A DNA stretch of 41,489 nt from Allofournierella massiliensis (lineage in GTDB: Bacteria > Bacillota > Clostridia > Oscillospirales > Ruminococcaceae), in contig NZ_SLUM01000030.1 in assembly GCF_004345265.1 (NCBI RefSeq), positions 1 to 41,489 of the forward strand, given 5' to 3'. Positions 1,975 through 40,582 of the stretch are shown one piece after another. Under the pieces are notes generated by a model. It did not search any database, had not been told where the DNA came from, and saw nothing but the letters and a program-made list of their open reading frames with translations. Numbering within the stretch: position 1 is the stretch's first letter; each line of letters opens with the position of its first letter. The position numbers were made by a program, and so were the translations under genes.

Positions 1975-2012
1975 GCAATTCACTTTACATACAATATTCA
2001 GGAGGAATCAAA

Positions 2013-15911: not shown

Positions 15912-16352
15912 TCACAGCGAGGGGGAGGCAGAAATTTTCCTCTTTTTAAATGCACAGGTAGATTGAATCAACATCATCAGCTCTAACTCACTCCGAAAAC
16001 ACACGGTCTTGGTGTTTCCAAGATTGGTATAGATAGTAGCTTTTCCCTGCATGCTGCTATGCTGTCGATACATGATGTCCGTCAGAACGCTGCAAATATC
16101 ACCACGGCGGGGCTTGACGGGGATGGGCTGCAGGATCTTTTCAGGCGGAATATTTAAGATGGAACATTCCTTGAGAGGCCAGTTGGCTGTTTCGCACAGA
16201 GCATCCAGAGAAAGAATCATGTGTGACAGAGAATTGAACCAGTAATAGCGCTGTTCTACAGGATCGAAAATCGTTCCTGTACACGAAAACTCTATGCAGT
16301 CTTTGATATGAATCAGATATGTGGTTTTTCGCAGAAATTGAGTGGATTTCAT
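15912..16352 (-). CDS. Small protein of the surface locus (paralog of the protein at 32135)
   Basis: A 146-residue protein with no signal peptide or membrane segment, of a family I cannot name. It shares two motifs with the protein at 32135-32581. The first is WFNSLSHMILSLDALCETANWP (partner: MFQNLDDLIFQINELCNQIGVP). The second is the C-terminal pattern YRQHSSMQGKATI...FRSELELMMLI (partner: RRQFNTWQGEVFW...FNSITELMVLL). The start at 16352 has TAGGAGA upstream; the longer open frame starting at 16466 would overlap the SARP gene and is rejected. It follows the SARP-type regulator by 71 bp and probably shares its transcript. Accessory or regulatory role in the surface locus is inferred. Confidence 0.65.
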   Translation of the reverse strand: MKSTQFLRKTTYLIHIKDCIEFSCTGTIFDPVEQRYYWFNSLSHMILSLDALCETANWPLKECSILNIPPEKILQPIPVKPRRGDICSVLTDIMYRQHSSMQGKATIYTNLGNTKTVCFRSELELMMLIQSTCAFKKRKISASPSL

Positions 16353-16423
16353 GATGAATCTCCTATATAAAGTAGACATCCGAGGCAGAATATAAAAGGT
16401 GATTACAGGAAACGAGAACACGA

Positions 16424-17623
16424 TCAGGACTGGAAAAAAGAAGAATTTACATTTTTCTGGATACAACGCAGATGGACACCACGGACAGGATGGTTGTGGT
16501 AATATTCGCAGATGCGTTTATGAACAATAAAAAATCCGTTGCTACTTGTGTTCGTCAGTAATACGATATATTGTCCACTTCTATATTGTGTGAAAGTATC
16601 ACCGCGACGCAGACAGTTTTGCAGTGCTTCTCGCAATGAACTGCCGGCAAGAGAGATTTTACTGGAGTCAGCGATTGAACGTCCCTGGAAATCGGAAAAA
16701 CTGTACAGCATGAGACAGGCGCTGGTATTAGAGCGTTCAGCCATACGGCAGACCATGCGGAACACATCCACAAAGCTGGATGGGCTGCAATAGTAGGGAC
16801 CGTGCGCCTGTTCAGTCTCACACAGGCGTTGTTGTAAATCATGAATTGTCTCATGACCGTCCAGAAGCAACTGATCGATTTGATTTGCGTGATCCAAAAG
16901 AGCCTGACTGGGGGCAACAGATAGCTCATCCCGCAAAACGTGGGTTGCTTTCAGATAAAGTTGTTTTGCATCCCGGTACTGATTTTGTGCCAGCAGGCAG
17001 TCGATCCCGACGCAATAAAAATATTCCATAGGGTGCATGTTACAGGCTTTTAATACAACAGGGTATAGCGTTGCCCACTGTTCCTTCTTCCTCAGCAGGT
17101 GAATCAGGTTGTCCACACAGGACAAATATTTTTGCTGGAGTGAGGCTTGAACGCTTTGGATCCAGTTATTGACAGCAGAAAAGCGAAGGAAGTCGTCCAA
17201 ATATAGTTTTTCTGCTTCCTGAAATAAAGAAAGTCCGGCAGAGGATTCTTCTGATTGACAGGCCTGAACATATAGCCTTTGAAAATCAATGGCATCAACG
17301 AAAAGAGGAACGGTACATTCAAGCCAGCGGTAATTTGCGTTGCCACAAATGGTAAAATAATTATGCAGAGGTGTGTTCTTCAGAAACTGTTTTAGCCGAA
17401 ACATGATTACTCTCAGATTTGCGCTTGGATCTGCAGACTCTCCATCGGAAAAGAGAATCTCCAAAAGCAAATCACGGGAAACCTTGTGGGGATAATGGTA
17501 AATCAACACCTGTAAGGCCAGGATGATTTTTGAATTACGACCTTCTCCAAGCACAACGGGCTGGCCGCATACATCAACTTGAAAATTGCCAAACATCTGA
17601 ACACGGATGTCTGTATCAGACAT
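16424..17623 (-). CDS. SARP/BTAD-type transcriptional regulator with C-terminal degenerate GGDEF-like region
   Basis: A 399-residue protein. Residues 1-100 form an OmpR/SARP-like winged helix (IRVQMFGNFQVDVCGQPVVLGEG; SANLRVIMFRLKQFLKN). Residues about 105-245 are a bacterial transcriptional activation (BTAD/TPR) domain (NNWIQSVQASLQQKYLSCVDNLIHLL; YRDAKQLYLKATHVLRDELSVAPS). Residues about 290-399 resemble a degenerate nucleotide-cyclase fold (LRRGDTFTQYRSGQYIVLLTN) with no GGDEF active site. SARPs activate transcription by binding direct repeats next to poor -35 regions, and two such promoters exist at 18889 and 32074. The start at 17623 has AAAGGGG upstream. The upstream region is an apparently invertible segment next to a tyrosine recombinase, so expression is probably phase variable. 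Confidence 0.78.
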   Translation of the reverse strand: MSDTDIRVQMFGNFQVDVCGQPVVLGEGRNSKIILALQVLIYHYPHKVSRDLLLEILFSDGESADPSANLRVIMFRLKQFLKNTPLHNYFTICGNANYRWLECTVPLFVDAIDFQRLYVQACQSEESSAGLSLFQEAEKLYLDDFLRFSAVNNWIQSVQASLQQKYLSCVDNLIHLLRKKEQWATLYPVVLKACNMHPMEYFYCVGIDCLLAQNQYRDAKQLYLKATHVLRDELSVAPSQALLDHANQIDQLLLDGHETIHDLQQRLCETEQAHGPYYCSPSSFVDVFRMVCRMAERSNTSACLMLYSFSDFQGRSIADSSKISLAGSSLREALQNCLRRGDTFTQYRSGQYIVLLTNTSSNGFFIVHKRICEYYHNHPVRGVHLRCIQKNVNSSFFQS

Positions 17624-17672
17624 GACGGAGGAAATCCCCTTTCTTTGACAGGAGAATCAGATGCAGAAACAG

Positions 17673-17690
17673 AATAATAATTTTGTTGCA
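17673..17690 (+). repeat. Left inverted repeat of the putative switch
   Basis: AATAATAATTTTGTTGCA, an exact inverted match to 17908-17925. It lies 50 bp upstream of the SARP start codon. Confidence 0.85.
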
Positions 17691-17907
17691 TTTATTTAAA
17701 GGCGTCATTGAAAAAAAATGGACACTGATTGGACAATTTTCATAAAATTATATTAAATCACGCAAAAAAGGTAGCATTAAATACGCTGATGACACGAACA
17801 CAGTGGTCATCGGCTTGCTTTGCTTTGTATTAATATAGAAGAAACTCTTGAAAAAAGCAAAAACATGCGATATATTGAAAATATAGCACAGGCAGAAAGA
17901 GAAAAAG

Positions 17908-17925
17908 TGCAACAAAATTATTATT
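17908..17925 (-). repeat. Right inverted repeat of the putative switch
   Basis: TGCAACAAAATTATTATT on the plus strand. It contains the TAA stop codon of the recombinase (17923-17921), so the recombinase reading frame is unchanged by inversion. Confidence 0.85.
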
Positions 17926-18823
17926 TTGTTGTGTATATTGGTTTGAATCTGAACTGAGTGCATGTGGTTTGGACAAGAAGATTCAGGCGATCCACCTGTT
18001 GCGCATGTGTGATTCCGCTTTCGATGGTGTAAATGCGGGTGGTATTTGTATCGCTGTGGCCAAGGATATCCGCAAGATATCCCAAGTTGTGATGCACGGC
18101 ATAATGCGTGCGTGCGAACAAATGGCGCAGGTTATGGGGGAACACCTTGCTGCAGGCTATCCCTGCCTTGCTGCACAGCTTTTTCATGCTCTTCCAGATA
18201 TTGATTCGATGAATTGGCCGACCGGTCCGTGTGGTGAACACGGGACCGGTCTTTTTTTTGTGCTGTTTCAGGTAACGGGTTAAAAGTTGGCAAAGTTGTT
18301 TCGGAAGAAACACATATCGGATTTTTCCCTTGTTTCGAATTTGGGCATAGCTGAGTTTAACGGCTTCCGCAGTGATGAACTGTAGTTCTGATACCCGGAT
18401 TCCGGTGGAACAGATCGTCTGGATAATGAGGGCAGTCTGTATGTCGTTCTGCCGCATGGCTTGCTTTACAAGCTGGGTATATTCGTTTCGTGTCAGTTCA
18501 CGTTCCGGTTTGCAAAAAAGGCTGCGCTGGATGCGCAGAGGCTTAAGCTGGAGCTGGAATGCACCGATATATTTCAAAAAACCATTCACAGCAGCAAGAA
18601 TGGTGTTTACGGTGGCAGGAGCATAGCGCAGAATGAGAGTTTCTTTCCACTGAACCAGCAGAGACTTGGTCAGGACGCCGTCAGGGGAAAATCCCATAAG
18701 GCGGATCAGATCCCGGCGATACTTTTTGGCGGTTTGCGCGCAGCGTTCCTGTTCAAGTAATGTCTGGATATACTCATTGATGATTTCGTTGCTGATGTGT
18801 GCAAAAGCTGGCGACTGATTCAT
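17921..18823 (-). CDS. Tyrosine recombinase (XerC/D-like integrase)
   Basis: A 300-residue site-specific recombinase. It has an N-terminal SAM-like core-binding domain (residues about 10-90) and a C-terminal catalytic domain. All catalytic residues are present: Arg143 in STGIRVSEL, Lys in NKGKIRYVFLP, His230 and Arg233 in HNLRH, His256 in LGHSD, and the nucleophile Tyr265 in TRIYT. Start ATG at 18823 with AAAGGAG upstream. There is no other mobile-element gene nearby, and it is small and XerC-like, which fits a dedicated inversion enzyme rather than a phage or ICE integrase. Its stop codon lies inside the right inverted repeat of the putative switch at 17668-17930. It is divergent from the giant adhesin operon. 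Confidence 0.9.
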   Translation of the reverse strand: MNQSPAFAHISNEIINEYIQTLLEQERCAQTAKKYRRDLIRLMGFSPDGVLTKSLLVQWKETLILRYAPATVNTILAAVNGFLKYIGAFQLQLKPLRIQRSLFCKPERELTRNEYTQLVKQAMRQNDIQTALIIQTICSTGIRVSELQFITAEAVKLSYAQIRNKGKIRYVFLPKQLCQLLTRYLKQHKKKTGPVFTTRTGRPIHRINIWKSMKKLCSKAGIACSKVFPHNLRHLFARTHYAVHHNLGYLADILGHSDTNTTRIYTIESGITHAQQVDRLNLLVQTTCTQFRFKPIYTTK

Positions 18824-18927: not shown

Positions 18928-19120
18928 CGTTGTAATAGCCGGTAAACAATATGATGTGTAGCGCTGTTGGTTTGCTTCGAAAGATGCGCCCCAAAAGGGC
19001 TGCCTAAAAATTATACAGCGAATAAACTACGGAATCCATTCTGTTCCATAATTTTTATATGTGAAAAACGTGTGGAAGGAAAGGACAGTCCAGAGGTAGT
19101 GAGCTAAGGGGAAGTTGCGT
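18928..19120 (+). other. Long untranslated leader of the adhesin operon
   Basis: About 190 nt lie between the predicted transcription start and the adhesin ATG. CGCTGT (18962-18967) can pair with ACAGCG (19015-19020) around an inner GCCC/GGGC hairpin with loop CAAAA. I could not match it to a known riboswitch class. No open frame or other gene is seen here. Confidence 0.35.
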
Positions 19121-22100
19121 ATGCGAAAGGAATATCGAATCATAGCGGCAGGTTTGGCAGCAGTTCTTGCAGTGAATATATATGCGCCGATTCATGTAAA
19201 GGCGTCACTGTTTCCCATTCCTGTTGTTATGAGTGCAGAGGAAACACTGGATGGAAGTATTGAGCGGATAGAAAGCGCCGATGATATAACAGATTCTTCC
19301 GTGACCACGCTGGAGCCGGAAGCCAGTGCGCAACCGGAAGCCAGCGCGCAACCGGAGGCCAGCGCTCAACCGGAAGCCAGCGCGCAACCGGAGGCCAGCG
19401 CTCAACCGGAAGTCAGCGCGCAACCGGAGGCCAGCGCTCAACCGGAAGCCAGCGCGCAGCCGGAAGTCAGCGCGCAACCGGAAACCAGCGCGCAGCCGGA
19501 AGTCAGCGCGCAGCCGGAAATCAGTGCGCAGCCGGAAGTCAGCGCACAGCCAGAAGCTAGCACACAGCCGGAAGCCAGCACACAGCCGGAAGCAACAACC
19601 CGGCCAGAAGAGAATTCAGAGGGGTATGCAGTTTATCAGAACGGTGTGATCCTTCTGTATACTTACGAGCAGCTGTGTGCAGTGGGCAGCGGCCAGCCAG
19701 TAATGACTGGTGATGGTACAGAGCTGGGTAGCGGCGAACCGGTCTTGGATGAGCAGGGCCAGCCGGTCCTGTATGCACTGGATGCTGACTATCAGATCAT
19801 GGAGGACATCCCGCTGGAGAGCGTCTGGACGCTGCCGGCAGACTTTACCGGGCATTTTCTTTCCGACGAAGTAGCACAGGATGCTCCGCTGTATGACAGA
19901 GAGACAGATACCATTTACATTTACCACAACTATCAGCTGCTCACCATCGCTTCGGAAAATGCAGCCCAAGAGCCGGTGATGAGCAACGATATCTGGCCGG
20001 AGCAGTTTGGTACAGGTCAGTTTGTGTATCCAGACGGACAGCCGGAGGACGAAGAAGGGGCCCAGGCGTATGTGACCTATGACCCTGACCATCACTATGT
20101 ACTTTCCCGCTCCTTTACCGAGCAGATGCCCCAGATGATTGCGAGTCTGGTGGAAGCCCGTGAGGCAGACCCGGCTCAGCTGGGTGGTCGTGAGCATATC
20201 GGTCAGGTGTATGTGGAAATTGACGGGACCAAATATATTCTGATTGGCAATGAACATCAGCTTGCGGCCATCGGCACTGACGCCCAGGTGGCGCCGATGC
20301 TGTTTGTGCGGACAGAAGTGAAATTTCTGGTTGGACTTTTCCGTAAAGTAACACTGATTCCTTATTATCCGGGCGATGCGGATCTCAAAGCAACCAGTGT
20401 TTCGGATACAGGTATTACATACAAGGATATTGAAGAGGATACGCTTGATTTCCAATATTTAAAGAGCGAGGAATCGGACGGATTATGGAATCCGAATTTT
20501 GATGATCCCGGTCTGGTTGGAGCTGTGGTAGGAATTTTGGGAGATCTTCTGAAAGGTATTCTTTCCATTGTGAGCAGTAATAATGCCGAAATTGTGGGCC
20601 TCAAAGGAGAAAATACTGCCACACCCAGCATTGGTGCAGATGACGGTGGATTGTTAGGGAAGCCGGAGTACATGCCGTTTAACGAGGTAAAGTCCACCTA
20701 TCAGGACCTAAAATACACCTCGGACGGCAACTACATCATCTTCCGGGATATCGATCTGAATAAGCTGAACGGCGATACCAGTCAGTCCAACTGGGTGCCG
20801 CTTACCTTTTCCGGCACCATGATTGGCGCAAAAGCGATAAATGGGGAAACGCTGACGAACGGAACTACGATCACAGCCACCGGTCGGCCTGTGATTTCCA
20901 ATGTAAGAGTACTTCAGAATACCCCTTTGGATGTGGGGAAACGTATGGGAGTTGGTTTCTTCGCCACACTGCACAGCGAAACTGGTGAAGTAGAGGGAGA
21001 AGGCGGCTCATCCTTTGGCAGCACCGGCGCAACGGTAGTATCCAATTTGAGTTTTGCAAATCCGACGATTCACACCACCACGAGTGAGACCACGACAGAG
21101 GATACCCTCATCAACGACCTGACATCAGGACTAGGTTGGATTGTCGGCGTCATATTGGATGAGATTTTGGGGATGTTGGGAGCAGACGTCAGTTTGAAAG
21201 ATATTCTGACTGATTTGTTGGATGCCCGTAAAAGTGACCCCACGGCACTGGCGACCGGTGCATTGGCTGGTCGTATAGTGGGGAATGTACAGATTACGGG
21301 GTGCGATGTAATAAGTCCTGATCTGTACAATCTCAACTCTGTCACAGGCGGTTTTGTGGGCTATTCTGAAGGTGCAACGAGCTATGCGACGGAGAATCTT
21401 GGCGTCCTCGTGAAATTGCTGTCTGGAGTTCTGAATTTGATCCCCGGCCTTGGCTTGGGAGATGTGATTACAATTCTGCTGGGAAATGCGCTGCCGTTGG
21501 ATAAGCTGGTTCCCACTGGATATGAAAGCCCTGTACTGACGGACTGCACCGTCACCGGCCTGTCGGGTACCGTTGGAGTGTCTGATACCAAATATAACGG
21601 TGGTTTTACCGGTCAGATCATCGGCACCCAGATGATCGACTGTGATGTTATAAATAGCGATTACACCGTACAGGCGGAAAGCTACGGCGGCGGCTTTGTG
21701 GGTCTGGCCCGCGACGCTGAGATCAAGGGTATGCTGCAGGAAGGCCTGGGGATTCTGGATGCCGGAACCACCGGCACCCTGATGCTGGACTGCGATGTGA
21801 ATGGCTGGACGCCTAAAAGAGGGGATGCCGTATCCGGCGGCAGCTATCTGGGCGGTTTCGCCGGTGCGCTGGCCAACAGCTATACCGTAGATTGCAGCCT
21901 TTCGGTGACGGGCGCTATTACAGGCAGTGGCAGCCATGTGGGCGGCTGGGCTGGCGTAGGCGCAATTGGCTGGGCCACCGACCTGGGCAAAGATAATACC
22001 AATGACACCACTTTGCTGGGCGGTGTGACCGACCTGCTGGGCAGCCTGTTGAGCAGCGGCGGTGATACAACCGCATTGCTCTCTCTGGCGGGTGTTTCTC

Positions 22101-25100
22101 CCTCTGCCATTATGGGGTGCCAGATTAATAGTGTTAGTCTTACCGTCCATGCCGATGGTGACTATGCAGGCGGTTTTGTGGGAAATGGCAATGGTCTGTT
22201 GTTAACGCCGGCTACCGCAGAATATCTGAACAAGTTGACCTATTGGAAATCGAACACCATTACCGGTAGCCCCTCTGAGGGTTCCAACAAACTGGCAGGG
22301 CTTTCGGCGGTTACAGCCAATGGCAACTATGCCGGCGGTATTGCCGGCTCGCTGGGTGGTGCCAGCGTGGGTGGCCTGCTCAACGATACCGTGGGTCTGG
22401 GTGAGTTCCTGGGCTTTACGGTGGATGGCGTAGTGCTGGCCGAGCCATATACTGTGGTTGCCAAGGAGTATGCCGGCGGCGCAGTGGGCCTGGCAGTAGG
22501 CGGTACTGTAAAAAATGTGGATCTGCAGGCATTAGAGAAAGTGTCTGCGGAAAACATGGCTGGCGGCTTTGTGGGCGCTGGTGGCCCCGGTAGTCTGGCC
22601 GATACAAATGGACTGAGTCTGAACCTGTTGGGCCTCGATCATCTGCTTACGGTGGGAGGTCTCCTGAATGTCATTCCTGGCATCAAGCTGGAACTGGAGA
22701 ACTGCACGGTTTCCGGAGCAGGTGAAGGGTATATCGTGGAAGCCATAGGCCACGATACCCCGACTGTGGAATATGTGGCGGGTGGATTTATTGCTCGTTC
22801 CAACAGTACAAACATGACCAATTGCCACGCTGATAAACTGAAGAGCGTGACCGCGGATAACGCCCAAGGTTATGCCGGCGGTTTTGTGGGAATCTCCCGT
22901 ACCGGAGATTTGGCAGACCTGGGTGATTTAAGGGATTCGGAAGGCGCATTGATTGCGGTCAATGACCTGCTGGGTACCATCGGCACCATGGTTCCCGATT
23001 ACACCAACTGCACCGTCACTTATACGAATGGCGGCTATGTCCAGGCCGATGTGGCCGGCGGATTTGCCGGCGACTTCCAGAGCGGCAAGGTGAATAACCA
23101 GAGCCGTGGTGAGGAAAATTATTACGCCGTCTACAACATCGCCTCTGTAAATGGCCAGACCTATGCTGGCGGCTTCGGCGGCAAGGTATATTCCGGCGCG
23201 CTGGCCGATGTCGGCGGCGGTATCTCCATCCTGGGCGGCAGCGGTTTGGACATCAATCTGACCAATCTGCTGAATGTTATCGAGGCTTATGTGCCTTATG
23301 TGTCCTATGCGGGCGTCTATTCAGAGAACGGCTTCACCGTCACTGCCACCGAGCTGGGCGAGAACGATGTCTATGCCGGCAGTGCCGGCGGTTTTATCGG
23401 CTATGCCAGCGGTGCACAGATCTCCACCTGCGATGTGACCTATCTGAAACATACCAAGGTCACTCCGCCCGATGATCTGGAAGCGGTGAATGCGCCCAGC
23501 TACTTTGATAACAACAGCGCCTACGCCGTCACCGGCGGGCGGTATGCCGGCGGGTTCATCGGATGTATGGACATCGGCAGTGCGGCCTCGGTGGGCAGCG
23601 GTCTGAGCGTGCTGGGGGATCTTCTCAACCTGGACAATCTGCTCAGCGCCCTCAACGTGGTGGTCACCACCATTGAGCAGTCCGATGTCACGGGCGGTCC
23701 CGGCGGTTACTCCGTTCTGGCAACCGCCAGCGCTGCGTCCGGTGCGCTGGGTATGGCCGGCGGTTTCGCCGGAGCCATCAACGGCGGCCACATCCAGGAC
23801 TCCAACGCCCACAACTTCGAGTACATCATCGGCCAGATCGCGGCCGGCGGTTATGTGGGTGAAATGAAGCCCGGCGATGTGACCCGGGTCATGGAAGATG
23901 CCAGCATTCTGAATGGATTGATCAGCGTGGATACCTCGCTGGCTTCTCTGCTGCAGACCTTTGTGCCGACCATCCGCAACAGCAGCACCGACGCGGTGCC
24001 CTGCGGCGGCGTGGTGCGCGCCCAGGCGGCCTCGGATGAAAGCATCCAGCGCGGCATGGCCGGCGGTTATGTGGGCCACAACATGGGCGGCAGCATCTGG
24101 GGACTGAATACAGACCCCTGGAAAACCGCTCTGAACCCGTACACGGGTCCCACCAGCATCTGCAAGGCGGAACGCATCCGCTCGGTTTACGGTGCGGAAT
24201 ACGCCGGCGGCTTTACCGGCTTTATGGAGGCTGCTGACACCGCCAGTGTGGGCGGACTGAATATCCTGGGCAATCTGATCAGTGTGAACAATATTCTGGG
24301 AGCCCTCAGCGTGGTGTATCCCACCCAGGAGAACACCGCAGTGTACGGCCCCCTGGCCAATCTGGATGTGAATACCTGGAACAAGTGGGTGGAATACGTC
24401 GGCCAGCACGGTGGCTACGGCTTTGAGCTGGCCCAGGCCGGTACGGTGACGAGCCCGGAAGAACTGAACCAAAAGCTGGCCAACTATATTTATGGTTTCA
24501 ACGTGGTGGCCGGGCGCAGCGCGCAGGAAACGCTGCTGCCCAATCCCGGCGGTGACGCCGGTGGCTATGTGGGCCTGATGCGCAGCGGCACGCTGACCAA
24601 CTGCATGGCTTACGATGTGAAGCTGGTCAGCGCCCGGGGCGCGGCAGGTGGCTTTGGCGGCCGGATGGAAACCGGCGGTGCGGCCGACTTCGGCGGTGTG
24701 GATATTATCGGTTTGAAATTGGAAATCGATAAGCTGCTGCAAGTAGTGGAAGTCTTTGTTCCCGCAGTCCGCAATTCCTCGGCGCAGGGCTATACCTCCG
24801 GCATGACGATAACGGCCACCGGTACCCCCGCTGCGGGGGATGACGTGGGCTATGCCGGCGGCTTCGTCGGTGCGGCTTACGGTGCACAGATCCAGCTCAA
24901 CGATAACGACCTGCCCAACGCAGGCAAAGACTCCGCCACTTGGGTGGGCACCGGCAAATACCCTGCCCCCACCGCCAGCTGCGATGTGACTGGCCTGCGC
25001 CGGGTCACCGGACGCAATGCCGTTGGCGGCTATGTGGGCGTTGCCTCGTCTTCTTCCCTGGCCAGCGTCAACACCAACGCCTCCAGCGGCATTCTCCAGG

Positions 25101-27556
25101 GTATTCTGAACAGCCTGATCGATAAAGCGGGTGACCTGGTCGATCTGCTGCCCGCCACCTACACCACCATCCATAAGGCATCCGTCTCTCCGGCGGACAG
25201 CCAGTGGGGCTTCGTGGTGGATGGCACCTACCAAGAGGGTTCCACAACCCGGTACGCCCCCTATGCAGGAGGGTTTGCCGGATTCGTCCAGGCGGCCTCC
25301 ATCGGGGAGAAAGCAGATGCCGGAACCACGGAAGAACAGCAAACAACCTATCGCGTGACGGTCAACGGTCTGCGCAGCGTGCAGGGCGGCCTGTACGCCG
25401 GCGGCTTCTTCGGCATGGCTGATGTGGCCGGTGTGGCCGAAGTGGGCGGCACCGGTTCCGATGGCGGCACCACAGATGTGATCGGCCCACTGATCCAGCT
25501 GGGCAGAATCGACGCCATGGACGTACTGCGCTGCTACATCAACAATGCGGCAGTTCACGGCGTTGCCGAGGGCTTTGCCATTCAGGCTTACAGCACAAAC
25601 GCTGGCGAAGGTATTTATGAAGAAACCCGCCAGACCGGCTGTGCCGGCGGCTTTGGCGGCGGCCTGATGAACGGCACTGTCCAGAATGGCGCTGTGACCA
25701 GTCTCTCCAGCGTTCAGGCGCTCAACTATACCGGTGGCTTTATCGGCCACATGGGTAAGAGCGGCGTGGTGGACGTGGACAGCGTGGAGCTTCTTAACAA
25801 ATTCCTGGCCCTGGGAGCCGGCGTGAGCGATCTCTTTGGTTCCCAGGTGTTTGACAGCATCGTGGCGGGCATTCCGGAAGGTGCTACCATTCAGGCTATG
25901 GGCGGCAAGGAACCCATTGCTGGCGGCTTCGTGGGTTACAGCGACCTGGGACGCATCAAAAATGACCATGTCACCGATCTGAAAAAGGTCACCAGCGACC
26001 AGATCGCCGGCGGCTTCATCGGAAAAACCGACATGGCCTATCTGGTCAGCGTGGGGGCGGATTCGCCTTTGCTGAACGGTGTGCTGTATGTGGTCAACGA
26101 GCTGGTGAAGGCCCTGTATCTGGATAGCGACCGCCTGCAAAGTATCAATCTTGCACATTTCAATCTTGGTATTGTAAGTGTGGATGTCCTGCGGGAGGGC
26201 AATGTTGCCAAAGTCAATCTTTTGGGCATACAGATTTCGGTGGCCCTGTCGAAACAATCGGATAACCCCAACCAGCAGACCGACGTGGCCATCATCACCA
26301 TCGGCGATTCCGCGATTCGCCTGCCCTGCACGGAAGATGGCGTGAACGAGGACGATCTGAAAAACGTGGAGATCAACCTCATCAAGGGCAACCGCACCGA
26401 GCTGGACAACTGCTCCGTCACCGGTGTGGCCAATGGCTACGACGTGTTTGCCGGCGGCGCCACCCAGGATACAGACGGCACCCATGCAAACGGCATGGCC
26501 GGCGGCTTTGTGGGCTACAACCACGAGGGCAAGATCAGCAACTCGGAGATGGTGCTGTGCGATACGGTGCGCGGAACAGCCCAAAAGGTAGGGCCGTTTA
26601 CCGGTTACAACGATCTGAAATCCGTGTATTGGTTCAACACCATTGCCTCTATCGAAGGTGAAGGAAATACGTACTCCATCTATCGTCCGCTGGAAGCGGC
26701 ACTGACCAACATCAACACAAACGGCGGCAATCCGATCGGTGCTGCTGCAGTGGAATATCCGCAAGAAGCCCCGGTCTACAACCGTTATGTGATCCAGCAC
26801 ATCAACTCCTTTGAAGATGTGCTGGATACCGGTAAGGAGCTGAGCGTCTACGACATGTTCAAGGCGCTGGAAGGTGCCGATGAGGTCGGCGAAAATGACG
26901 AAGGTGAAACCACCGCCACACGGGAGCTGAATGCCTATATCAGCGACGCTCAGGCGGTGCTGATGCGGAATGCTGCTTCCCCGGACAACCCGCCCACCCT
27001 TGTGCCGGAGCCCGGCGTAAACGCCGACCCCTGCTACGAGAATGTGGACCTGACCATCCACAAGGTCTGGGACGACTGGTTCAACTTCGGCCAGACCCGT
27101 CCGGACAGCATCACCCTTACCATCTGCCGGCAAGAATATAATGCCGATGGCACGCCAATCGGCGCAACAGAAACCTATAAATCGGTCACCTTGACTTCTG
27201 CGGACCAGGATGGCCCCTGGTCTGCGGTTTGGAGTACTGTGCTGAAGAATGTGCCCCTGTATAAGTACGAGGATGCCAATGGAAACGGTGTACTGGACTA
27301 CGAAGAAACCATCACAGCCTACTACGTCTACACGGTGAAGGAAGAGAACGTGCCGGCCGGATACACGGTCAGCTACGAATTCTACGACCCCAACCATGCA
27401 GGCGATTATGAACTGACCGTCACCAACAAGCTGAACATTCCGCTGCCGGACACCGGCGGTGCGGGCGACAGCCTGTTTGTGGTGGTCGGGGTAGGAATCC
27501 TCCTGCTGGGGGTGGCGCTGGGTAAGCGCCGTACCCGTAGAAGGGGGGCGCAGTAG
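19121..27556 (+). CDS. Giant LPDTG cell-wall-anchored adhesin with AGGFVG (GLUG-like) repeats
   Basis: 2811 residues. An N-terminal signal peptide (MRKEYRIIAAGLAAVLAVNIYAPIHVKA) is followed near residue 66 by sixteen six-residue PE(A/V)SAQ repeats, a likely wall-spanning stalk. A very long body (about 520-2540) has the recurring signature YAGGFVG/MAGGFVG followed by short SVG-hydrophobic stretches and NC-type turns, resembling GLUG-motif beta-solenoid surface proteins. A C-terminal CnaB-like domain (VDLTIHKVWDDW; E-box YTVKEENVPAGY) probably forms an isopeptide bond. The end is the sorting signal LPDTG at 2775-2779, a hydrophobic segment and KRRTRRR. Start ATG at 19121 with AAGGGG upstream; a TTG at 19115 is less well placed. 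First gene of the pilus operon. Ligand unknown. Confidence 0.88.
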   Translation: MRKEYRIIAAGLAAVLAVNIYAPIHVKASLFPIPVVMSAEETLDGSIERIESADDITDSSVTTLEPEASAQPEASAQPEASAQPEASAQPEASAQPEVSAQPEASAQPEASAQPEVSAQPETSAQPEVSAQPEISAQPEVSAQPEASTQPEASTQPEATTRPEENSEGYAVYQNGVILLYTYEQLCAVGSGQPVMTGDGTELGSGEPVLDEQGQPVLYALDADYQIMEDIPLESVWTLPADFTGHFLSDEVAQDAPLYDRETDTIYIYHNYQLLTIASENAAQEPVMSNDIWPEQFGTGQFVYPDGQPEDEEGAQAYVTYDPDHHYVLSRSFTEQMPQMIASLVEAREADPAQLGGREHIGQVYVEIDGTKYILIGNEHQLAAIGTDAQVAPMLFVRTEVKFLVGLFRKVTLIPYYPGDADLKATSVSDTGITYKDIEEDTLDFQYLKSEESDGLWNPNFDDPGLVGAVVGILGDLLKGILSIVSSNNAEIVGLKGENTATPSIGADDGGLLGKPEYMPFNEVKSTYQDLKYTSDGNYIIFRDIDLNKLNGDTSQSNWVPLTFSGTMIGAKAINGETLTNGTTITATGRPVISNVRVLQNTPLDVGKRMGVGFFATLHSETGEVEGEGGSSFGSTGATVVSNLSFANPTIHTTTSETTTEDTLINDLTSGLGWIVGVILDEILGMLGADVSLKDILTDLLDARKSDPTALATGALAGRIVGNVQITGCDVISPDLYNLNSVTGGFVGYSEGATSYATENLGVLVKLLSGVLNLIPGLGLGDVITILLGNALPLDKLVPTGYESPVLTDCTVTGLSGTVGVSDTKYNGGFTGQIIGTQMIDCDVINSDYTVQAESYGGGFVGLARDAEIKGMLQEGLGILDAGTTGTLMLDCDVNGWTPKRGDAVSGGSYLGGFAGALANSYTVDCSLSVTGAITGSGSHVGGWAGVGAIGWATDLGKDNTNDTTLLGGVTDLLGSLLSSGGDTTALLSLAGVSPSAIMGCQINSVSLTVHADGDYAGGFVGNGNGLLLTPATAEYLNKLTYWKSNTITGSPSEGSNKLAGLSAVTANGNYAGGIAGSLGGASVGGLLNDTVGLGEFLGFTVDGVVLAEPYTVVAKEYAGGAVGLAVGGTVKNVDLQALEKVSAENMAGGFVGAGGPGSLADTNGLSLNLLGLDHLLTVGGLLNVIPGIKLELENCTVSGAGEGYIVEAIGHDTPTVEYVAGGFIARSNSTNMTNCHADKLKSVTADNAQGYAGGFVGISRTGDLADLGDLRDSEGALIAVNDLLGTIGTMVPDYTNCTVTYTNGGYVQADVAGGFAGDFQSGKVNNQSRGEENYYAVYNIASVNGQTYAGGFGGKVYSGALADVGGGISILGGSGLDINLTNLLNVIEAYVPYVSYAGVYSENGFTVTATELGENDVYAGSAGGFIGYASGAQISTCDVTYLKHTKVTPPDDLEAVNAPSYFDNNSAYAVTGGRYAGGFIGCMDIGSAASVGSGLSVLGDLLNLDNLLSALNVVVTTIEQSDVTGGPGGYSVLATASAASGALGMAGGFAGAINGGHIQDSNAHNFEYIIGQIAAGGYVGEMKPGDVTRVMEDASILNGLISVDTSLASLLQTFVPTIRNSSTDAVPCGGVVRAQAASDESIQRGMAGGYVGHNMGGSIWGLNTDPWKTALNPYTGPTSICKAERIRSVYGAEYAGGFTGFMEAADTASVGGLNILGNLISVNNILGALSVVYPTQENTAVYGPLANLDVNTWNKWVEYVGQHGGYGFELAQAGTVTSPEELNQKLANYIYGFNVVAGRSAQETLLPNPGGDAGGYVGLMRSGTLTNCMAYDVKLVSARGAAGGFGGRMETGGAADFGGVDIIGLKLEIDKLLQVVEVFVPAVRNSSAQGYTSGMTITATGTPAAGDDVGYAGGFVGAAYGAQIQLNDNDLPNAGKDSATWVGTGKYPAPTASCDVTGLRRVTGRNAVGGYVGVASSSSLASVNTNASSGILQGILNSLIDKAGDLVDLLPATYTTIHKASVSPADSQWGFVVDGTYQEGSTTRYAPYAGGFAGFVQAASIGEKADAGTTEEQQTTYRVTVNGLRSVQGGLYAGGFFGMADVAGVAEVGGTGSDGGTTDVIGPLIQLGRIDAMDVLRCYINNAAVHGVAEGFAIQAYSTNAGEGIYEETRQTGCAGGFGGGLMNGTVQNGAVTSLSSVQALNYTGGFIGHMGKSGVVDVDSVELLNKFLALGAGVSDLFGSQVFDSIVAGIPEGATIQAMGGKEPIAGGFVGYSDLGRIKNDHVTDLKKVTSDQIAGGFIGKTDMAYLVSVGADSPLLNGVLYVVNELVKALYLDSDRLQSINLAHFNLGIVSVDVLREGNVAKVNLLGIQISVALSKQSDNPNQQTDVAIITIGDSAIRLPCTEDGVNEDDLKNVEINLIKGNRTELDNCSVTGVANGYDVFAGGATQDTDGTHANGMAGGFVGYNHEGKISNSEMVLCDTVRGTAQKVGPFTGYNDLKSVYWFNTIASIEGEGNTYSIYRPLEAALTNINTNGGNPIGAAAVEYPQEAPVYNRYVIQHINSFEDVLDTGKELSVYDMFKALEGADEVGENDEGETTATRELNAYISDAQAVLMRNAASPDNPPTLVPEPGVNADPCYENVDLTIHKVWDDWFNFGQTRPDSITLTICRQEYNADGTPIGATETYKSVTLTSADQDGPWSAVWSTVLKNVPLYKYEDANGNGVLDYEETITAYYVYTVKEENVPAGYTVSYEFYDPNHAGDYELTVTNKLNIPLPDTGGAGDSLFVVVGVGILLLGVALGKRRTRRRGAQ
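19316..19603 (+). repeat. 18-bp tandem repeat tract (16 units)
   Basis: Sixteen units of an 18-bp repeat (consensus CCGGAAGCCAGCGCGCAA) encode Pro-Glu-Ala/Val-Ser-Ala-Gln. Adjacent units differ by one or two bases, and some blocks are identical, so copy number is likely variable between strains. Confidence 0.9.
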
Positions 27557-27572
27557 TTCTTTGACTGTCCGC

Positions 27573-27589
27573 GGCGGTTTTCGACCGCC
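27573..27589 (+). other. Small intercistronic hairpin
   Basis: GGCGGT-TTTCG-ACCGCC in the 84-bp gap between adhesin and pilin, with no T-run. Probably an mRNA processing or stability element rather than a terminator. Confidence 0.45.
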
Positions 27590-27640
27590 ATACACCCTTG
27601 AACCAAAACCCAAAAAAGAAAACGAAAGGAAATGTGAAGA

Positions 27641-29266
27641 ATGAAAAAGCAAATGAAGCGCGCAACAGCGGTTGCACTGGCAACTGCCATGACGATGGGC
27701 ATGAGCTTCCCCGCTTTTGCAGCGGGCAATGGCGGCGACCGCACCCTGGTTGTCACAGGCGACACTCTGGACAATAAGAAGGTTTATGCCGTCCAGATGT
27801 TTGATGCCCGTGTGACCGAAGGCGGCAGCAGCAACACCTTCGATAACTATGAGCTGGTCAATACGGAGAACTGGCTGGAGTTCTTCACCGCTAACACAGA
27901 GGCTGGCGGCATGGGCCTGACCGATCAGGACGATGACAGCGATATCGACGCGGATGATGTGCGCGCTTATCTGGAAGGGATGACTGCCGATAGCGCTGAG
28001 GTGAAAACCCTTGCCGACAAGGCGCAGGCCTGGGTGCGGAATCACAGCACTGACTTTGCCGTGATCACTTCTGATGATGAGACTCCTGCTGTTGCCGACA
28101 AGGAGACTTTCACTCAGCTGAAGGCCGGCTACTACCTGGTGTATCCCGAGGGCGGCTCCACCGGCACCGGCAACCGCGGTACCGACGCCATGCTGGTGAA
28201 CGTGCCCACTGACGCAAATGCCGAGTGGGCCATGAAGAGTACCTTCCCCACGGTGGACAAGAAGGTTGACACCGACGGCGAAGGTGGCAATGGCGCAGCC
28301 GATAACGGCAGCGCCCAGGTTGGCGATGTGGTCACCTTTACCCTGACCTCCGCTGTGCCCGATATGAGCGATTACACCACCTTCTACTTCGCCTTCAACG
28401 ATACCCTGTCCAACGGCCTGAAGGTCGTAGACAACACTGGAGCCGATGTTGTTGATGGTGATAATCTTACGATTGACGGTCTGACCGTCACCATCGACGG
28501 TGAGACCGTCACCGGTTATACTGTTTCTCTCCACAGCAACGTACTGAAGGTGGAGTTTACCAATCTGAAGTCTGTTACCCAGGCCGCCGAGGCTGAAGAC
28601 ATCGGCAAGGCCATCGTGGTCACCTACAAAGCCATGATCACTGAGGGTGCTGTTGTTGGCAATCCCGCTCTGAACACTGTTAAGGTGGAGTACAGCAACG
28701 ATCCCACCACTGGTACCACGGGTGAGTCCACCCCCGACGAAAGCGATGTCTTTACTTACGAGATCGATGTGAATAAGTGGTCCACTGAGGCCGGTGGCAT
28801 TACTGGTAACCTGGCCGGCGCTGAGTTCAAGCTGACCACCGATAAGGCCGGCGAACAGGTTGTCGAACTGATTGCCACAGAGGACGGATACCGCGTGGCC
28901 AAGCCTGACGAGGTTGGTGTCAACTCCTTCACCACCACTGAGGTCGGCGACATCACCATCTCCGGCCTGGAAGCCGGCACCTACTACCTGCACGAGGTGG
29001 CCGCTCCCGAGGGCTACAACAAGCTGAAGGCCCCCATCGAGATTAAGATCGAAATGACCAATGAGGAGACCGGCGAAGCCAAAATCACCGTGGATGGTGA
29101 GGCTGCGACCGGCGATGACGGCACCACCGTGGACGTGGAGAACAAGAAGGGTATCGAGCTGCCCGAGACCGGTAGCATCGGCACCATCAGCCTGACCGCC
29201 GCCGGTGTGGCCATCGTGCTGGCCGGCGTGCTGGCGCCCCGCAAAAAGAAGTCCGAGCAGGAGTAA
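27641..29266 (+). CDS. SpaA-type major pilin (LPETG)
   Basis: A 541-residue secreted pilin subunit. Signal peptide MKKQMKRATAVALATAMTMG ending near AFAAG. The N-terminal domain has the pilin pattern GYYLVYPEGG, and the middle domain starts FPTVDKKVD. The C-terminal CnaB domain contains Lys in EIDVNKWSTE and the E-box YYLHEVAAPEGYN, which together form an isopeptide bond in Spa pilins. The sorting signal LPETG at residues 507-511 is followed by a hydrophobic helix and RKKKSEQE. Class C sortases join such subunits through a lysine, giving a covalent pilus. AAAGGA precedes the ATG. The sortase gene follows 3 bp after the stop. Codon bias is strong, as expected for a major subunit. Confidence 0.92.
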   Translation: MKKQMKRATAVALATAMTMGMSFPAFAAGNGGDRTLVVTGDTLDNKKVYAVQMFDARVTEGGSSNTFDNYELVNTENWLEFFTANTEAGGMGLTDQDDDSDIDADDVRAYLEGMTADSAEVKTLADKAQAWVRNHSTDFAVITSDDETPAVADKETFTQLKAGYYLVYPEGGSTGTGNRGTDAMLVNVPTDANAEWAMKSTFPTVDKKVDTDGEGGNGAADNGSAQVGDVVTFTLTSAVPDMSDYTTFYFAFNDTLSNGLKVVDNTGADVVDGDNLTIDGLTVTIDGETVTGYTVSLHSNVLKVEFTNLKSVTQAAEAEDIGKAIVVTYKAMITEGAVVGNPALNTVKVEYSNDPTTGTTGESTPDESDVFTYEIDVNKWSTEAGGITGNLAGAEFKLTTDKAGEQVVELIATEDGYRVAKPDEVGVNSFTTTEVGDITISGLEAGTYYLHEVAAPEGYNKLKAPIEIKIEMTNEETGEAKITVDGEAATGDDGTTVDVENKKGIELPETGSIGTISLTAAGVAIVLAGVLAPRKKKSEQE

Positions 29267-29269
29267 TCC

Positions 29270-30148
29270 ATGAAAAAAGATACGCTGTGGCGGCTGGTCC
29301 GGGTGCTGGTGATCCTGGTGGGCATTGGCGTTCTGGCCTATCCCTCCCTCAGTGAGTATCTTGCCGAGCGAAATAGCAGCCGGGTCACCTCTTCCTATGA
29401 CGATACGGTCGCTCGTGCCGAGCAGGCCCGGCTGGATCAGCTGCTGGCTCAGGCGCAGGGATACAACCGCCAGCTGGCGGGCGCCAGTGCCGGGCAGGCT
29501 CCGCTCAGCGATGACAATGGAAATCCGATTACCCCGGAGAGCTACTGGGATCTTCTCAATGTGGATTCCACCGGCATGATGGGCTACATCGAGATCCCCA
29601 AATTGAACACCACCATCCCCATCTATCATGGCACTGAGGAGGCAGTTCTGCAGGTTGGCGTGGGCCATCTGCAGAACACCTCCCTGCCGGTAGGGGGCGA
29701 GTCCACCCATGCGGCGCTGTCCGGCCACCGGGGCCTGCCCACCCGCAGCCTGTTCACCGATCTGGACAAGCTGGAAGTGGGCGACATCTTTTATATTCGT
29801 GTGCTGAATCAGACATTGTGTTATACAGTGGATCAGATTCTGACCGTACTCCCTTCGGAGATGGACGCACTGGCCATTGAAGAAGAAAAGGATTATGTGA
29901 CACTGATTACCTGTACACCTTACGGGATCAACTCTCATCGGCTGCTGGTGCGCGGCGTGCGCACACCTTATGATCCGCAGCAATACCAGGAAGAAACGGC
30001 GGAGACGCTTTCTTTCTGGCAGCGTATGCCGATTCAGTATCGGCACATGCTTACCGGAGCCGCTGTGCTTGTGGTGATTTTGCTGCTGCGCTGGATCGTA
30101 ATTGCGCTTGCAGGTTTTGTGAAAAGGAGGAAACAGCAACATGAATAG
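29270..30148 (+). CDS. Class C (pilin-polymerising) sortase
   Basis: A 292-residue membrane-bound transpeptidase. It has an N-terminal membrane anchor (WRLVRVLVILVGIGVLAYPSL), a sortase beta-barrel, and a second C-terminal membrane segment (GAAVLVVILLLRWIVIALAGF) followed by KRRK, the class C layout. Catalytic residues: His153 in LSGHRG, Cys215 in TLITCTPYG, and Arg224 in NSHRLLVRG. The usual class C lid motif (Asp-Pro-Phe/Trp) is not evident; LLNVDSTGMMGYIEIP stands in that region. The gene sits between the major and minor pilins with 3-bp and overlapping junctions, so it polymerises the SpaA-type pilin and probably adds the minor pilin. Confidence 0.92.
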   Translation: MKKDTLWRLVRVLVILVGIGVLAYPSLSEYLAERNSSRVTSSYDDTVARAEQARLDQLLAQAQGYNRQLAGASAGQAPLSDDNGNPITPESYWDLLNVDSTGMMGYIEIPKLNTTIPIYHGTEEAVLQVGVGHLQNTSLPVGGESTHAALSGHRGLPTRSLFTDLDKLEVGDIFYIRVLNQTLCYTVDQILTVLPSEMDALAIEEEKDYVTLITCTPYGINSHRLLVRGVRTPYDPQQYQEETAETLSFWQRMPIQYRHMLTGAAVLVVILLLRWIVIALAGFVKRRKQQHE

Positions 30149-31976
30149 CAACAGGATTTCCTCAAAAAATCGCTGTTGGATCATTCTTCTTCTGATAGTA
30201 ATGCTGTTGGCATCCTTCCAGCGACCGGTGTATGCGCAGCAGCTGATGGGAAGCCTTCAACTGGATTGCCATGTGAATGTGGATGGTAGGTCTATTCCAC
30301 TTGCGAACGACACATATGCCATTGTAAAAATCGCAGATATTACTGTGCAGGAAAGCCCGGCCATACTGACTTACAAAACAACAGAGGAATTTTCTTCCTT
30401 CCAGTACGACTGGGCGAACCTTGACGACAATGCGCGTCGTCAGGCAGCTCAGGAGCTGGCGGCGTTTGCTCAGGAACAGCCAGAGCTGTTGTCCACTACG
30501 AAAATCACAGACAGGAATGGTGACTTGACCTTTTCTCAGCTGGAGCCGGCGTTGTACCTGGTGGTCAGAACGCAGGTCGATGTGGCGAACCGTGCCTGTT
30601 CGCTGGACCCGTTTCTGGTGGATATTCCCACCATTGTGAACGGCAAACTGGAATATACGTTGACCGCAGTACCGAAATTCGATTATCAGAGCATCCGGCT
30701 TCGGCCCTGCAATGTGACCATTTACATGGGCGGCAATGAAGGCTATGACGCGGTTGGCGGTGTGCAAACCACTTCTCTGCCGAAACCGATGTTTGTGATC
30801 GAAGCTCCTGAGGGTGTGGCTGTGGAAGATTTGACATTGCTGTATCATGATGACCCCAACTATACCGGTAACCCCGGCAAGCGATTCGAGTGGACGCCAG
30901 TGGAAATCGGTAAGGATGAAGAGGGAAATGTGTGCTACCGCCTTGACCGCAAGGATGGCACGGATGAAAATTTCCATGTTCAGTATTATGCGGACGGAGA
31001 ACCGGTACAAATGGATGAATTTCAGCCGGAGCTGGAAGAAGAGCTCTATAAAATGTATACCACAGGCATTCCGCTCAGTGAAGGCGAAGTGCTTGTGGCA
31101 TATGTTACCAGTGAAGAGGGGTCTGTTTTTTATCCTATACAGCGTGGGACGGCTGAATTAACGGTTCGAGGTGTGGAAAGAGAATCTATCATCAGCAACC
31201 CGGAAAATCCTGTGACCCGTGTATTTGCGCAGGAGGAAACGATTCCTGAGATTCCAGCAGGAGTAGGTGTTGTGGTTGCTCCGGAAGGAACAACCTACAC
31301 CTTGAATGAAACGGACATTGAATTAGAGAATCTGCACGGCGATTCTACCGAAATGGATGTGGGCCTGCTGTTTGATGACATCATGAATGAAGTGTATGAC
31401 CGGCAGTCGCTGTTGGAAGCACAGGCGGATGAATGTATGCCGGAACTTGAGCCGGGAGCCACGAGGCACTTCCAAAGCCAATATCTGGACTTGGTGGATA
31501 TGAACAACGGCAATGCCTGGGTTATGGCTTCTAATCCGGTTGAAGTTTATTGGGGTTATCCGGAAGGAACCGATGCGAATACATCCTTTACGCTTTGGCA
31601 TTTCCGGGGATTGCACCGGGATGGCACGGATGACGCGATGGAATCTGGCTATAATCTGGAAGATATTATGGCGGTCGAGCCGGAAAAAGTTTTTATTGAG
31701 AATACGCTTCAGGGAATTCGCTTTACTGCTGAACCCGGTGGCTTTTCTCCGTTTGTCCTCGTTTGGGAGGAAAACACAGGCCCGGCCGAAGACTCGGATT
31801 CGCCTGTTCTGCCGCAAACGCCGTCAGATCAAGTGGATAAACCAATTCGAATTCCATTCCTGCCGCAAACAGGCGACACTGCTTTGTATGGCTGGTTGAC
31901 TATTCTGCTTGTGGGCTGTATTGGAATTGTTTCCATCACGATTTACAAGGCATACGAGAAGAAAAAACAGAAGTAG
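30141..31976 (+). CDS. LPQTG-anchored minor or tip pilin
   Basis: A 611-residue surface protein. It has a signal peptide (SKNRCWIILLLIVMLLASFQRPVYAQ) and an N-terminal domain of the short pilin type (GSLQLDCHVNVDGRSIPLANDTYAIVKIADI; LEPALYLVVRTQ). A larger beta-rich region follows, ending VFIENTLQGIRFTAEPGGFSPFVLVWEE. Two LPQT motifs occur near the end: LPQTP at 557 and the proper sorting signal LPQTG at 574-578, then a hydrophobic segment and KAYEKKKQK. The ATG at 30141 overlaps the sortase stop by 8 bp, with AAAGGAGG upstream inside the sortase gene. Last gene of the pilus operon. A tip or anchor subunit is the likely role, from its place next to a class C sortase. Confidence 0.8.
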   Translation: MNSNRISSKNRCWIILLLIVMLLASFQRPVYAQQLMGSLQLDCHVNVDGRSIPLANDTYAIVKIADITVQESPAILTYKTTEEFSSFQYDWANLDDNARRQAAQELAAFAQEQPELLSTTKITDRNGDLTFSQLEPALYLVVRTQVDVANRACSLDPFLVDIPTIVNGKLEYTLTAVPKFDYQSIRLRPCNVTIYMGGNEGYDAVGGVQTTSLPKPMFVIEAPEGVAVEDLTLLYHDDPNYTGNPGKRFEWTPVEIGKDEEGNVCYRLDRKDGTDENFHVQYYADGEPVQMDEFQPELEEELYKMYTTGIPLSEGEVLVAYVTSEEGSVFYPIQRGTAELTVRGVERESIISNPENPVTRVFAQEETIPEIPAGVGVVVAPEGTTYTLNETDIELENLHGDSTEMDVGLLFDDIMNEVYDRQSLLEAQADECMPELEPGATRHFQSQYLDLVDMNNGNAWVMASNPVEVYWGYPEGTDANTSFTLWHFRGLHRDGTDDAMESGYNLEDIMAVEPEKVFIENTLQGIRFTAEPGGFSPFVLVWEENTGPAEDSDSPVLPQTPSDQVDKPIRIPFLPQTGDTALYGWLTILLVGCIGIVSITIYKAYEKKKQK

Positions 31977-32028: not shown

Positions 32029-32073
32029 GAGAAAAAGTAAGTAGCAGTGAATATTGAAAAAGAAGCGGCAAGT

Positions 32074-32106
32074 GTTACGCTTGTGTAACGCCCCGTGTGG
32101 AATAAT
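32074..32106 (+). promoter_or_regulatory. SARP-type promoter of the VWA/SipW operon
   Basis: GTTACGCTTGTGTAACG, 10 bp, then AATAAT (32101-32106). It matches the promoter at 18889 at 16 of 17 operator positions with identical spacing, while the 10-bp spacer is unrelated. The conservation is therefore functional rather than a simple duplication. No -35 box. Confidence 0.7.
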
Positions 32107-32134
32107 AAAGAAAACAATAGAAGGAGGCACCAAA

Positions 32135-32581
32135 ATGATACCGTGGGAAAGAGCGACGGATTTCTATAGTGTTTGCATGGATAACACGGAGGATGGAGTG
32201 TGTAAAGGAAGACTGTATCATCGGTATCTGAGTGGCCCACTGATGTTTCAAAATCTGGATGATCTGATCTTTCAAATTAACGAACTCTGCAACCAGATTG
32301 GAGTGCCAGAAGCCTGGGAAAGATTCCGCGGAAAAAGAGTATCTGAACGGGTGGGAAATCATCTGGTTGAAGTCCCCAGAAATCATGAAGAGATTCGAAC
32401 CGAGCAAGGCAAGAAGGAAACGTTTTGGATAGTGATTGTACGGCGGCAATTCAACACCTGGCAAGGGGAAGTCTTCTGGAAAGAGAAGCAAAAAGAGGGT
32501 CAGTTTAACAGTATAACAGAGCTTATGGTGTTGCTGGCATCTGCTGCAATGTGCTCAGAAACTGGAGGGGTATCGCAATGA
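32135..32581 (+). CDS. Small protein, paralog of the SARP partner protein
   Basis: A 148-residue soluble protein of unnamed family, with Cys residues in CKGRLYHRYL and ELCNQIG. It shares its central and C-terminal motifs with the protein at 15912-16352 (see there): FQNLDDLIFQINELC and RRQFNTWQG...FNSITELMVLL. The start ATG at 32135 has AAGGAGG at ideal spacing; the longer frame from 32054 runs through the promoter and is rejected. It is the first gene after the second SARP-type promoter, and its TGA overlaps the ATG of the giant VWA protein (ATGA), implying translational coupling. Having one copy beside the regulator and one at the head of a target operon suggests a regulatory or assembly role. 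Confidence 0.7.
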   Translation: MIPWERATDFYSVCMDNTEDGVCKGRLYHRYLSGPLMFQNLDDLIFQINELCNQIGVPEAWERFRGKRVSERVGNHLVEVPRNHEEIRTEQGKKETFWIVIVRRQFNTWQGEVFWKEKQKEGQFNSITELMVLLASAAMCSETGGVSQ

Positions 32582-38403: not shown

Positions 38404-38424
38404 ACCGGAAAGGAGCGATGAAAC

Positions 38425-39042: not shown

Positions 39043-39078
39043 TATGTGCAAAAAGAAATCGGATAAGGAACTGGTTGC

Positions 39079-39588: not shown

Positions 39589-39731
39589 CAAAATTGAAGG
39601 GCGGTTTTTTAGGCGGGCTTTAAGTCTTGCATGGTAGGATAGTGGCAGTTTAGAAAACAGCGTTTCTGGAAACAGACAAAGGAAGAACACGGACGCAGCG
39701 GCGCCCGGTATGTACCAAAGGAGGAACGATC

Positions 39732-40469: not shown

Positions 40470-40510
40470 GCGGATACATACGCTGAGAAAATCAAGCAAT
40501 AGTATGGAAC

Positions 40511-40557
40511 AATTCCCCAATAAATCTGCGATGGGTAGCCATCCGGAGGGGATTTAA
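40511..40557 (+). other. Intergenic stem-loop upstream of the third SipW substrate
   Basis: AATTCCCC pairs with GGGGATTT (one mismatch) around an inner hairpin GATGG-GTAG-CCATC. No T-run of terminator type follows. Possibly an mRNA stability element that balances subunit amounts. Confidence 0.3.
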
Positions 40558-40582
40558 AAACAGTGAAAAGGAGTTTTGAACA

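Follow-up and report, generated by a model that had tools for sequence, protein, structure and literature searches.

Results and Discussion

The stretch of DNA analysed here (the window; 41,489 nucleotides of Allofournierella massiliensis, contig NZ_SLUM01000030.1) contains a tyrosine recombinase gene and a SARP-like regulator gene that are separated by a short segment between inverted repeats. This arrangement raises the question of whether the segment is a promoter that is turned around by the recombinase and, if so, in which of its two positions it was captured in the assembly. The comparisons described below led us to a reading that we give a probability of roughly 0.9: the recombinase would invert a promoter segment and thereby switch the BTAD-domain regulator, the assembly would represent the OFF state, and the neighbouring pilus or fibre genes would be the expected target.

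Recombinase, regulator and inverted repeats of the window

The recombinase gene (17921–18823, minus strand) codes for a protein of 300 amino acids (Phage_integrase, 1.3e-24), which we assume to be the invertase acting here. In an alignment of 93 relatives, the residues R143, K165, H230, R233, H256, and Y265 are invariant in all filled rows (91–93). We take this R-K-H-R-H-Y set to be the catalytic residues of tyrosine recombinases, and a catalytic domain with this set makes the protein a member of that family. The matches in NCBIfam are XerA/XerD-like, albeit below their cut-offs, and the nearest solved structures are XerA/XerC/XerD-type chains. The protein does not belong to the FimB/FimE-type family, as PRK09870 and PRK09871 scored about 19 bits compared to cut-offs of 221–222. 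In PHROGs, the recombinase matches integrases; a single scan for viral copies yielded 13 stretches that fitted a pattern, none of which was confirmed.

The regulator gene (16424–17623, minus strand) is the gene presumed to be controlled. Its BTAD domain (2.2e-10) scored 41.5 bits at a cut-off of 22.1 and identifies a SARP-type regulator with respect to this domain; the end of the protein gave a sub-threshold GGDEF-like match. No DNA-binding domain was detected in the window SARP even at E ≤ 1, and no solved structure matched at E ≤ 0.01. Three relatives encoded at the paralogous locus described below match the OmpR-like winged-helix model Trans_reg_C (4.3e-6, 4.3e-6, and 8e-6). The regulator gene is followed by a gene for a small protein (15912–16352, minus strand), and similar proteins occur near other switches. 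In an alignment of six sequences, R96, Q97, Q102, and G103 are invariant; a longer frame of this gene (15912–16466) had no Pfam match. Small proteins with the RQ..QG motif, devoid of a Pfam match where scanned, are encoded twice in the window (15912–16352, minus strand; 32138–32581, plus strand) and at three further loci (L024, L084, and L140).

The two repeats are located on the regulator side (17668–17696) and on the recombinase side (17902–17930); their arms comprise 29 nucleotides each and are 90% complementary. The first-pass annotation had described perfect 18-bp inverted repeats that bracket 217 bp between recombinase and regulator, and these were confirmed at 17673–17690 and 17908–17925, with the invertible segment at 17691–17907. 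Each repeat contains a dyad with a 4-bp centre. On the regulator side (17669–17686, centre 17676–17679) it reads ACAGAAT-AATA-ATTTTGT on the plus strand, and on the recombinase side (17912–17929, centre 17919–17922) it reads ACAAAAT-AATA-ATTTTGT on the minus strand. The same AATA is thus read on opposite strands and the centres are therefore oppositely oriented, in agreement with the earlier description. The recombinase-side repeat contains the stop codon of the recombinase gene (TAA, 17921–17923), and the expectation that the reading frame survives a flip held, as the protein was unchanged in a simulated inversion. In this simulation, the -10 hexamer end of a promoter lands 98 bp before the ATG of the regulator. 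Inverted repeats around a promoter and an adjoining, presumably controlled gene, which are among the features of an inverton, are both found in the window.

The best inverted-repeat score of the window is 20; the maximum reached in 600 block shuffles of this region was 13. When up to one mismatch was tolerated, four places in the 3.73-Mb genome fitted the pattern ACAWAAT-N4-ATTWTGT, namely the two window sites and the two that belong to a paralogous switch, compared to one place for the backward control pattern. Distant targets of the window recombinase were rejected, as no further sites occur in the genome at this threshold. A search for a second strain carrying the window locus found none.

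Conservation of arms and centres among relatives

At E ≤ 1e-40, homologs of the recombinase were present in 72 of the 297 family genomes searched, in 111 of 394 at the level of the order, and in 63 of 391 in the class sample; these counts include the own genome. The family sample contained 97 places at this threshold, of which 89 were taken and 8 weaker or partial ones left out; with 4 others added, the family set comprised 93 places. Of these, 11 are cut short and 2 are rows of one palindromic locus (L085), such that 80 could be tested. A repeat pair with a score of at least 16 was found at the 3' end of the recombinase gene in 64 of the 80, compared to a null maximum of 15 in 243. A motif-based count gave a pair in 63 of 80 places, fewer than two sites in 16, and no suitable pair in one. 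The family is thus not always a local invertase, because 16 of the 80 places lack a repeat pair scoring at least 16. Three genomes (G333, G607, and G762) have six matches each to the window recombinase and represent rich sets of possible switches.

Strand exchange by tyrosine recombinases requires near-fixed arms and a centre that is matched between the sites, yet varies. The typical site of the relatives is ACATAAT-N4-ATTATGT. When pairs were picked by their arms alone and the centre was ignored, 62 of 63 had identical inverted centres; direct identical centres were absent from the family set except for two palindromic ones. For a second set, the 58 loci with the highest scores were taken from the searches of the order and the class; 53 of them were long enough. 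Repeats were found in 48 of these 53, and the centres were inverted and identical in 46 of 47 pairs and direct in none. One pair in each set has unmatched centres (L130 and L192). Among the 62 pairs, 42 distinct centres occur. Pairs from the same genome have different centres in 11 of 12 cases; unrelated pairs differ as often (1.6% same overall), and we found no sign beyond chance of a selection for different centres within a genome. The segments of the relatives are mostly 200–320 bp long and contain a promoter. At four loci (L027:1582–1927, L059, L072, and L097), an extra copy of the site lies approximately 50–100 bp from another one, which might allow for more than two arrangements.

Promoters, orientation and controlled genes of the relatives

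Promoters were scored with a spacer of 17 bp at a distance of 50–90 bp from a repeat, in comparison to a control position. The mean score was 9.86 versus 6.27 for the control in the family set, and 11.85 versus 6.75 in the second set. Of the 64 segments of the family set, 41 have their promoter pointing at the recombinase and 12 at the gene, while 11 gave no clear call; the corresponding numbers for the 48 segments of the second set are 36, 10, and 2. These calls agree with blastn comparisons of the segments: the main match was on the minus strand in seven of seven pairs with opposite calls (in one case over only 27 bases) and on the plus strand in 17 of 17 pairs with equal calls; three short secondary matches were contrary, and three pairs with an uncalled member were left out. 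Homologous switches are therefore found in both orientations when related genomes are compared. On a quick tree of the recombinases, the 12 ON rows require 11 changes.

Terminator-like hairpins with a score of at least 27 were found on the promoter strand in 39 and on the other strand in 43 of 99 segments (shuffles: 2 of 99), mostly behind the promoter (36 of 39 and 41 of 43, respectively).

Several assemblies contain hints of mixed populations. One contig (G018:C19, L085) is a perfect palindrome with 4844 bases on either side of a 263-base segment within the 10-kb stretch examined, as might be expected if the assembler meets both orientations. Four contigs stop 14–24 bases past the stop codon of the recombinase, at the first repeat, which also hints at mixed populations. 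In the family set, a contig end lies no more than 300 bp away on the 3' side at 11 of 93 places and on the 5' side at 1 of 93; exceptions are L031, which ends in a broken gene, and L029 and L137, which show no site. In the second set, the 3' side is this short at 5 of 58 loci. One locus (L183) has an unusually long inverted repeat with a score of 68 and is possibly a mixed-orientation assembly.

The controlled gene was picked mechanically as the longest frame starting within 500 bp, and 59 of 64 such genes were scanned; three with wrong-looking or doubtful picks (L025, L067, and L139) as well as L086 (2467 amino acids) and L123 (130 amino acids) were left out. According to Pfam, the 59 genes include five HA-domain helicases, four SPFH proteins, three each of S26 signal peptidases, BTAD proteins, List_Bact repeats and zinc ribbons, two each of EAL, GGDEF, VWA, FIVAR and Cna_B, and one CheW. 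On the recombinase tree, which has some weak forks, SPFH and helicase genes are not confined to a single position.

An additional layer of control is conceivable. In the OFF state, the promoter might produce an antisense RNA against the 3' end of the recombinase gene and thus stabilise this state. Of the 112 cassettes examined, 99 gave a call, and in 77 of these the promoter points at the recombinase, which is consistent with this idea; this bias may instead stem from growth conditions or from the cost of being ON, and we consider the antisense effect a tentative addition. Similarly speculative is a broader reading, in which a class-wide, portable bistable module has repeatedly been placed in front of unrelated genes and its OFF-state promoter brakes its own recombinase by antisense transcription. 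Such a module would consist of the recombinase, a private pair of sites with near-fixed arms and a 4-bp centre drifting in step, a promoter, and a hairpin; the unrelated genes would be regulators, SPFH proteins, HA-domain helicases, CheW, and surface proteins.

A second switch and its relatives in the genus

The own genome contains a paralogous switch (G000:C3) with the same arrangement and its own repeats. Its recombinase and its regulator are 62% and 38% identical to those of the window, respectively, and it adjoins a Cna_B surface protein and an S26 signal peptidase (L024:13756–14274). Orthologs of this second switch exist in G004 and G002. The segment of G002 is inverted in comparison to those of G000 and G004 (L026 versus L024 and L025), as indicated by minus-strand blastn matches with 81% identity over 139 and 85% over 141 bases, and in the G002 copy the promoter TTGAAA-17-TATTAT faces the regulator. 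In a further relative (G003:C23, L160:4000–4800), the recombinase and the near repeat are absent, one repeat is left, and the same promoter points toward the SARP gene; the flanks are 85–92% identical to L025 and L026. This locus looks like a switch that was locked ON through the loss of its invertase. As the promoter of this apparently locked copy faces the SARP gene, it marks the functional direction.

All four adjacent recombinase–SARP pairs seen in the genus possess repeats; among these, no relative that keeps both genes lacks them. Three other recombinases of the genus (L028, L030, and L032) have no repeat pair scoring at least 16 (scores 8–9). Among the loci with SARP homologs retrieved from the genus, six gave no recombinase match; in two of these cases, the contig ends approximately 300 bp upstream.

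The apparently locked locus shows that such switches do become locked, and the window copy might likewise be a fossil whose repeats persist although it no longer flips and is locked OFF. The regulator-side site indeed deviates by one change in its arm (ACAGAAT). A G at this arm position is, however, also present in 11 of 62 recombinase-side sites, and the frame and the catalytic residues of the window recombinase are intact. We therefore regard a fossil as unlikely; very probably, the window recombinase can flip the window copy.

Orientation of the window switch

The best promoter of the segment, TTGAAA-17-TATATT (17848–17876, plus strand), has a score of 10, is located at a distance of 60 bp to the repeat like the promoters of relatives, and faces the recombinase in the orientation shown. 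Behind it lies a terminator-like hairpin (17785–17814, plus strand) that has a weak T tail and is borderline (fold -15.7 kcal/mol, z -2.8); it scored 27.5 in one scoring and 25.5 and 27.0 in the scoring of the 99 segments, and a standard terminator scan of 17600–17960 found none. The earlier description of a terminator-like hairpin on one side only was not borne out, given this borderline structure and the hairpins that relatives have on either strand.

The first-pass annotation had tentatively considered the orientation shown to be ON. In this variant of the same switch, the regulator would be driven by a perfect TATAAT that points toward it (17747–17752, minus strand) or by a weak element. 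The TATAAT has a score of 7 at 85 bp and lacks a good -35 box, as the sequence 17 bp before it is GCTACC. Two weak promoter-like matches also point toward the regulator. One of them (8/12) lies within the segment; the other (9/12; 17920–17947, minus strand) spans the recombinase-side repeat and the end of the recombinase gene, which places it largely outside the flipping part. In contrast, the element facing the other way has a score of 10 and is placed as in relatives, and the corresponding promoter faces the SARP gene in both L160 and L026. An ON orientation is thus improbable, though the weak matches raise its odds slightly. Since the promoter with a proper -35 box faces the recombinase, the assembly most likely represents the OFF state of the regulator, although this state may be leaky because the weak 8/12 and 9/12 matches face the regulator.

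The integrase domain and the PHROGs matches might suggest that the recombinase belongs to a mobile element as its integrase, with the repeats as decayed attachment or accessory sites. This is very hard to reconcile with centres that are inverted in 62/63 and 46/47 pairs, segments of mostly 200–320 bp with a promoter, and the lack of a mobile-element gene among the window proteins scanned.

Proposed mechanism and presumed target

A promoter segment inverted by a tyrosine recombinase and controlling a SARP-like gene, as originally proposed for this locus, is supported by the comparison with relatives. According to the mechanism we propose, the recombinase would bind the two dyads via the arms ACAWAAT and ATTWTGT, and strand exchange inside the identical 4-bp (perhaps 6-bp) centre would invert the approximately 243 bp between the dyads. 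The segment carries one good sigma-70-type promoter near one end and a terminator-like hairpin behind it. In the ON state, the promoter would point toward the regulator, and transcription would cross the repeat and enter the BTAD gene, probably continuing into the gene of the small partner; the hairpin may offer protection from read-through. In the OFF state, presumably that of this assembly, the promoter would fire into the recombinase gene from its 3' end, and the regulator would be silent or expressed at a low level. Expression of the regulator seems to alternate between ON and OFF.

The regulator would be expected to act on neighbouring pilus or fibre genes. Divergently oriented surface genes (19115–31976, plus strand) are, by their position, a possible target. 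They code for a 2813-residue repeat protein without a Pfam match, a SpaH/EbpB-like pilin (27641–29266, plus strand), a class C sortase (29270–30148, plus strand), and a protein with a weak pilin-like match (30141–31976, plus strand). Further surface genes (32054–41371, plus strand) encode the second small RQ..QG protein, a 1950-residue DUF285/LRR_5 protein, an S26 signal peptidase that is SipW-like by eye (39079–39588, plus strand), and short secreted proteins. Given this proximity, the BTAD regulator may act on the adjoining pilus/SipW-type operon.

Two other features of the window were noted. Direct repeats of 18 bases at 19280–19495 encode PEASAQ-type units of the 2813-residue surface protein, whose length is possibly variable. 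At 1024–4493, a gene for a radical-SAM activase-like protein is followed by that of an 856-residue protein, which we take by eye to resemble a glycyl radical enzyme.

Relation to known switches and significance

This kind of switch is already known, and the window copy is a well-resolved further member. In the fimE-fimS-fimA system of E. coli, a recombinase gene immediately precedes, in the same direction, an invertible element of a few hundred bp whose promoter serves the following gene. The window switch has the same layout; it differs in its XerA/XerD-like recombinase, its sites, which are 18-bp dyads, and its controlled gene, which is a regulator.

A read-based study of hCom2 gut strains (PMC11892184, 2025) describes an inverton group 139, in which 32 of 33 invertons are from Clostridia and nearly all are near a tyrosine-type recombinase (invertase group 35), in a non-regulatable position. 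The window switch shares with this group, which was found by reads, the clostridial origin and the nearby tyrosine-type recombinase; a SARP target does not appear in the portion of the text that we consulted. The window switch is probably of the group 139 kind, whose repeat motif would then likely be ACATAAT-N4-ATTATGT. In Clostridioides difficile, inversion by the tyrosine recombinase RecV is reported to take place upstream of genes, some of which are regulators, and a recombinase adjoins Cdi7 (PMC5903667). The mechanism is close to that of the window switch, as it involves inversion upstream of genes in Clostridia. However, RecV acts in trans on several sites, whereas the genome studied here has sites only beside each recombinase. 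A publication describing inversion at a SARP/BTAD gene did not turn up in our literature searches.

The locus allows on/off heterogeneity next to clostridial surface-fibre genes to be modelled in detail at the sequence level, and the apparently locked-ON relative can be used for comparison. By means of the site rule, such switches can be found without reads. Conserved arms in combination with matched, drifting centres would allow several switches to coexist in one genome, and in related bacteria similar flip switches precede quite different genes.
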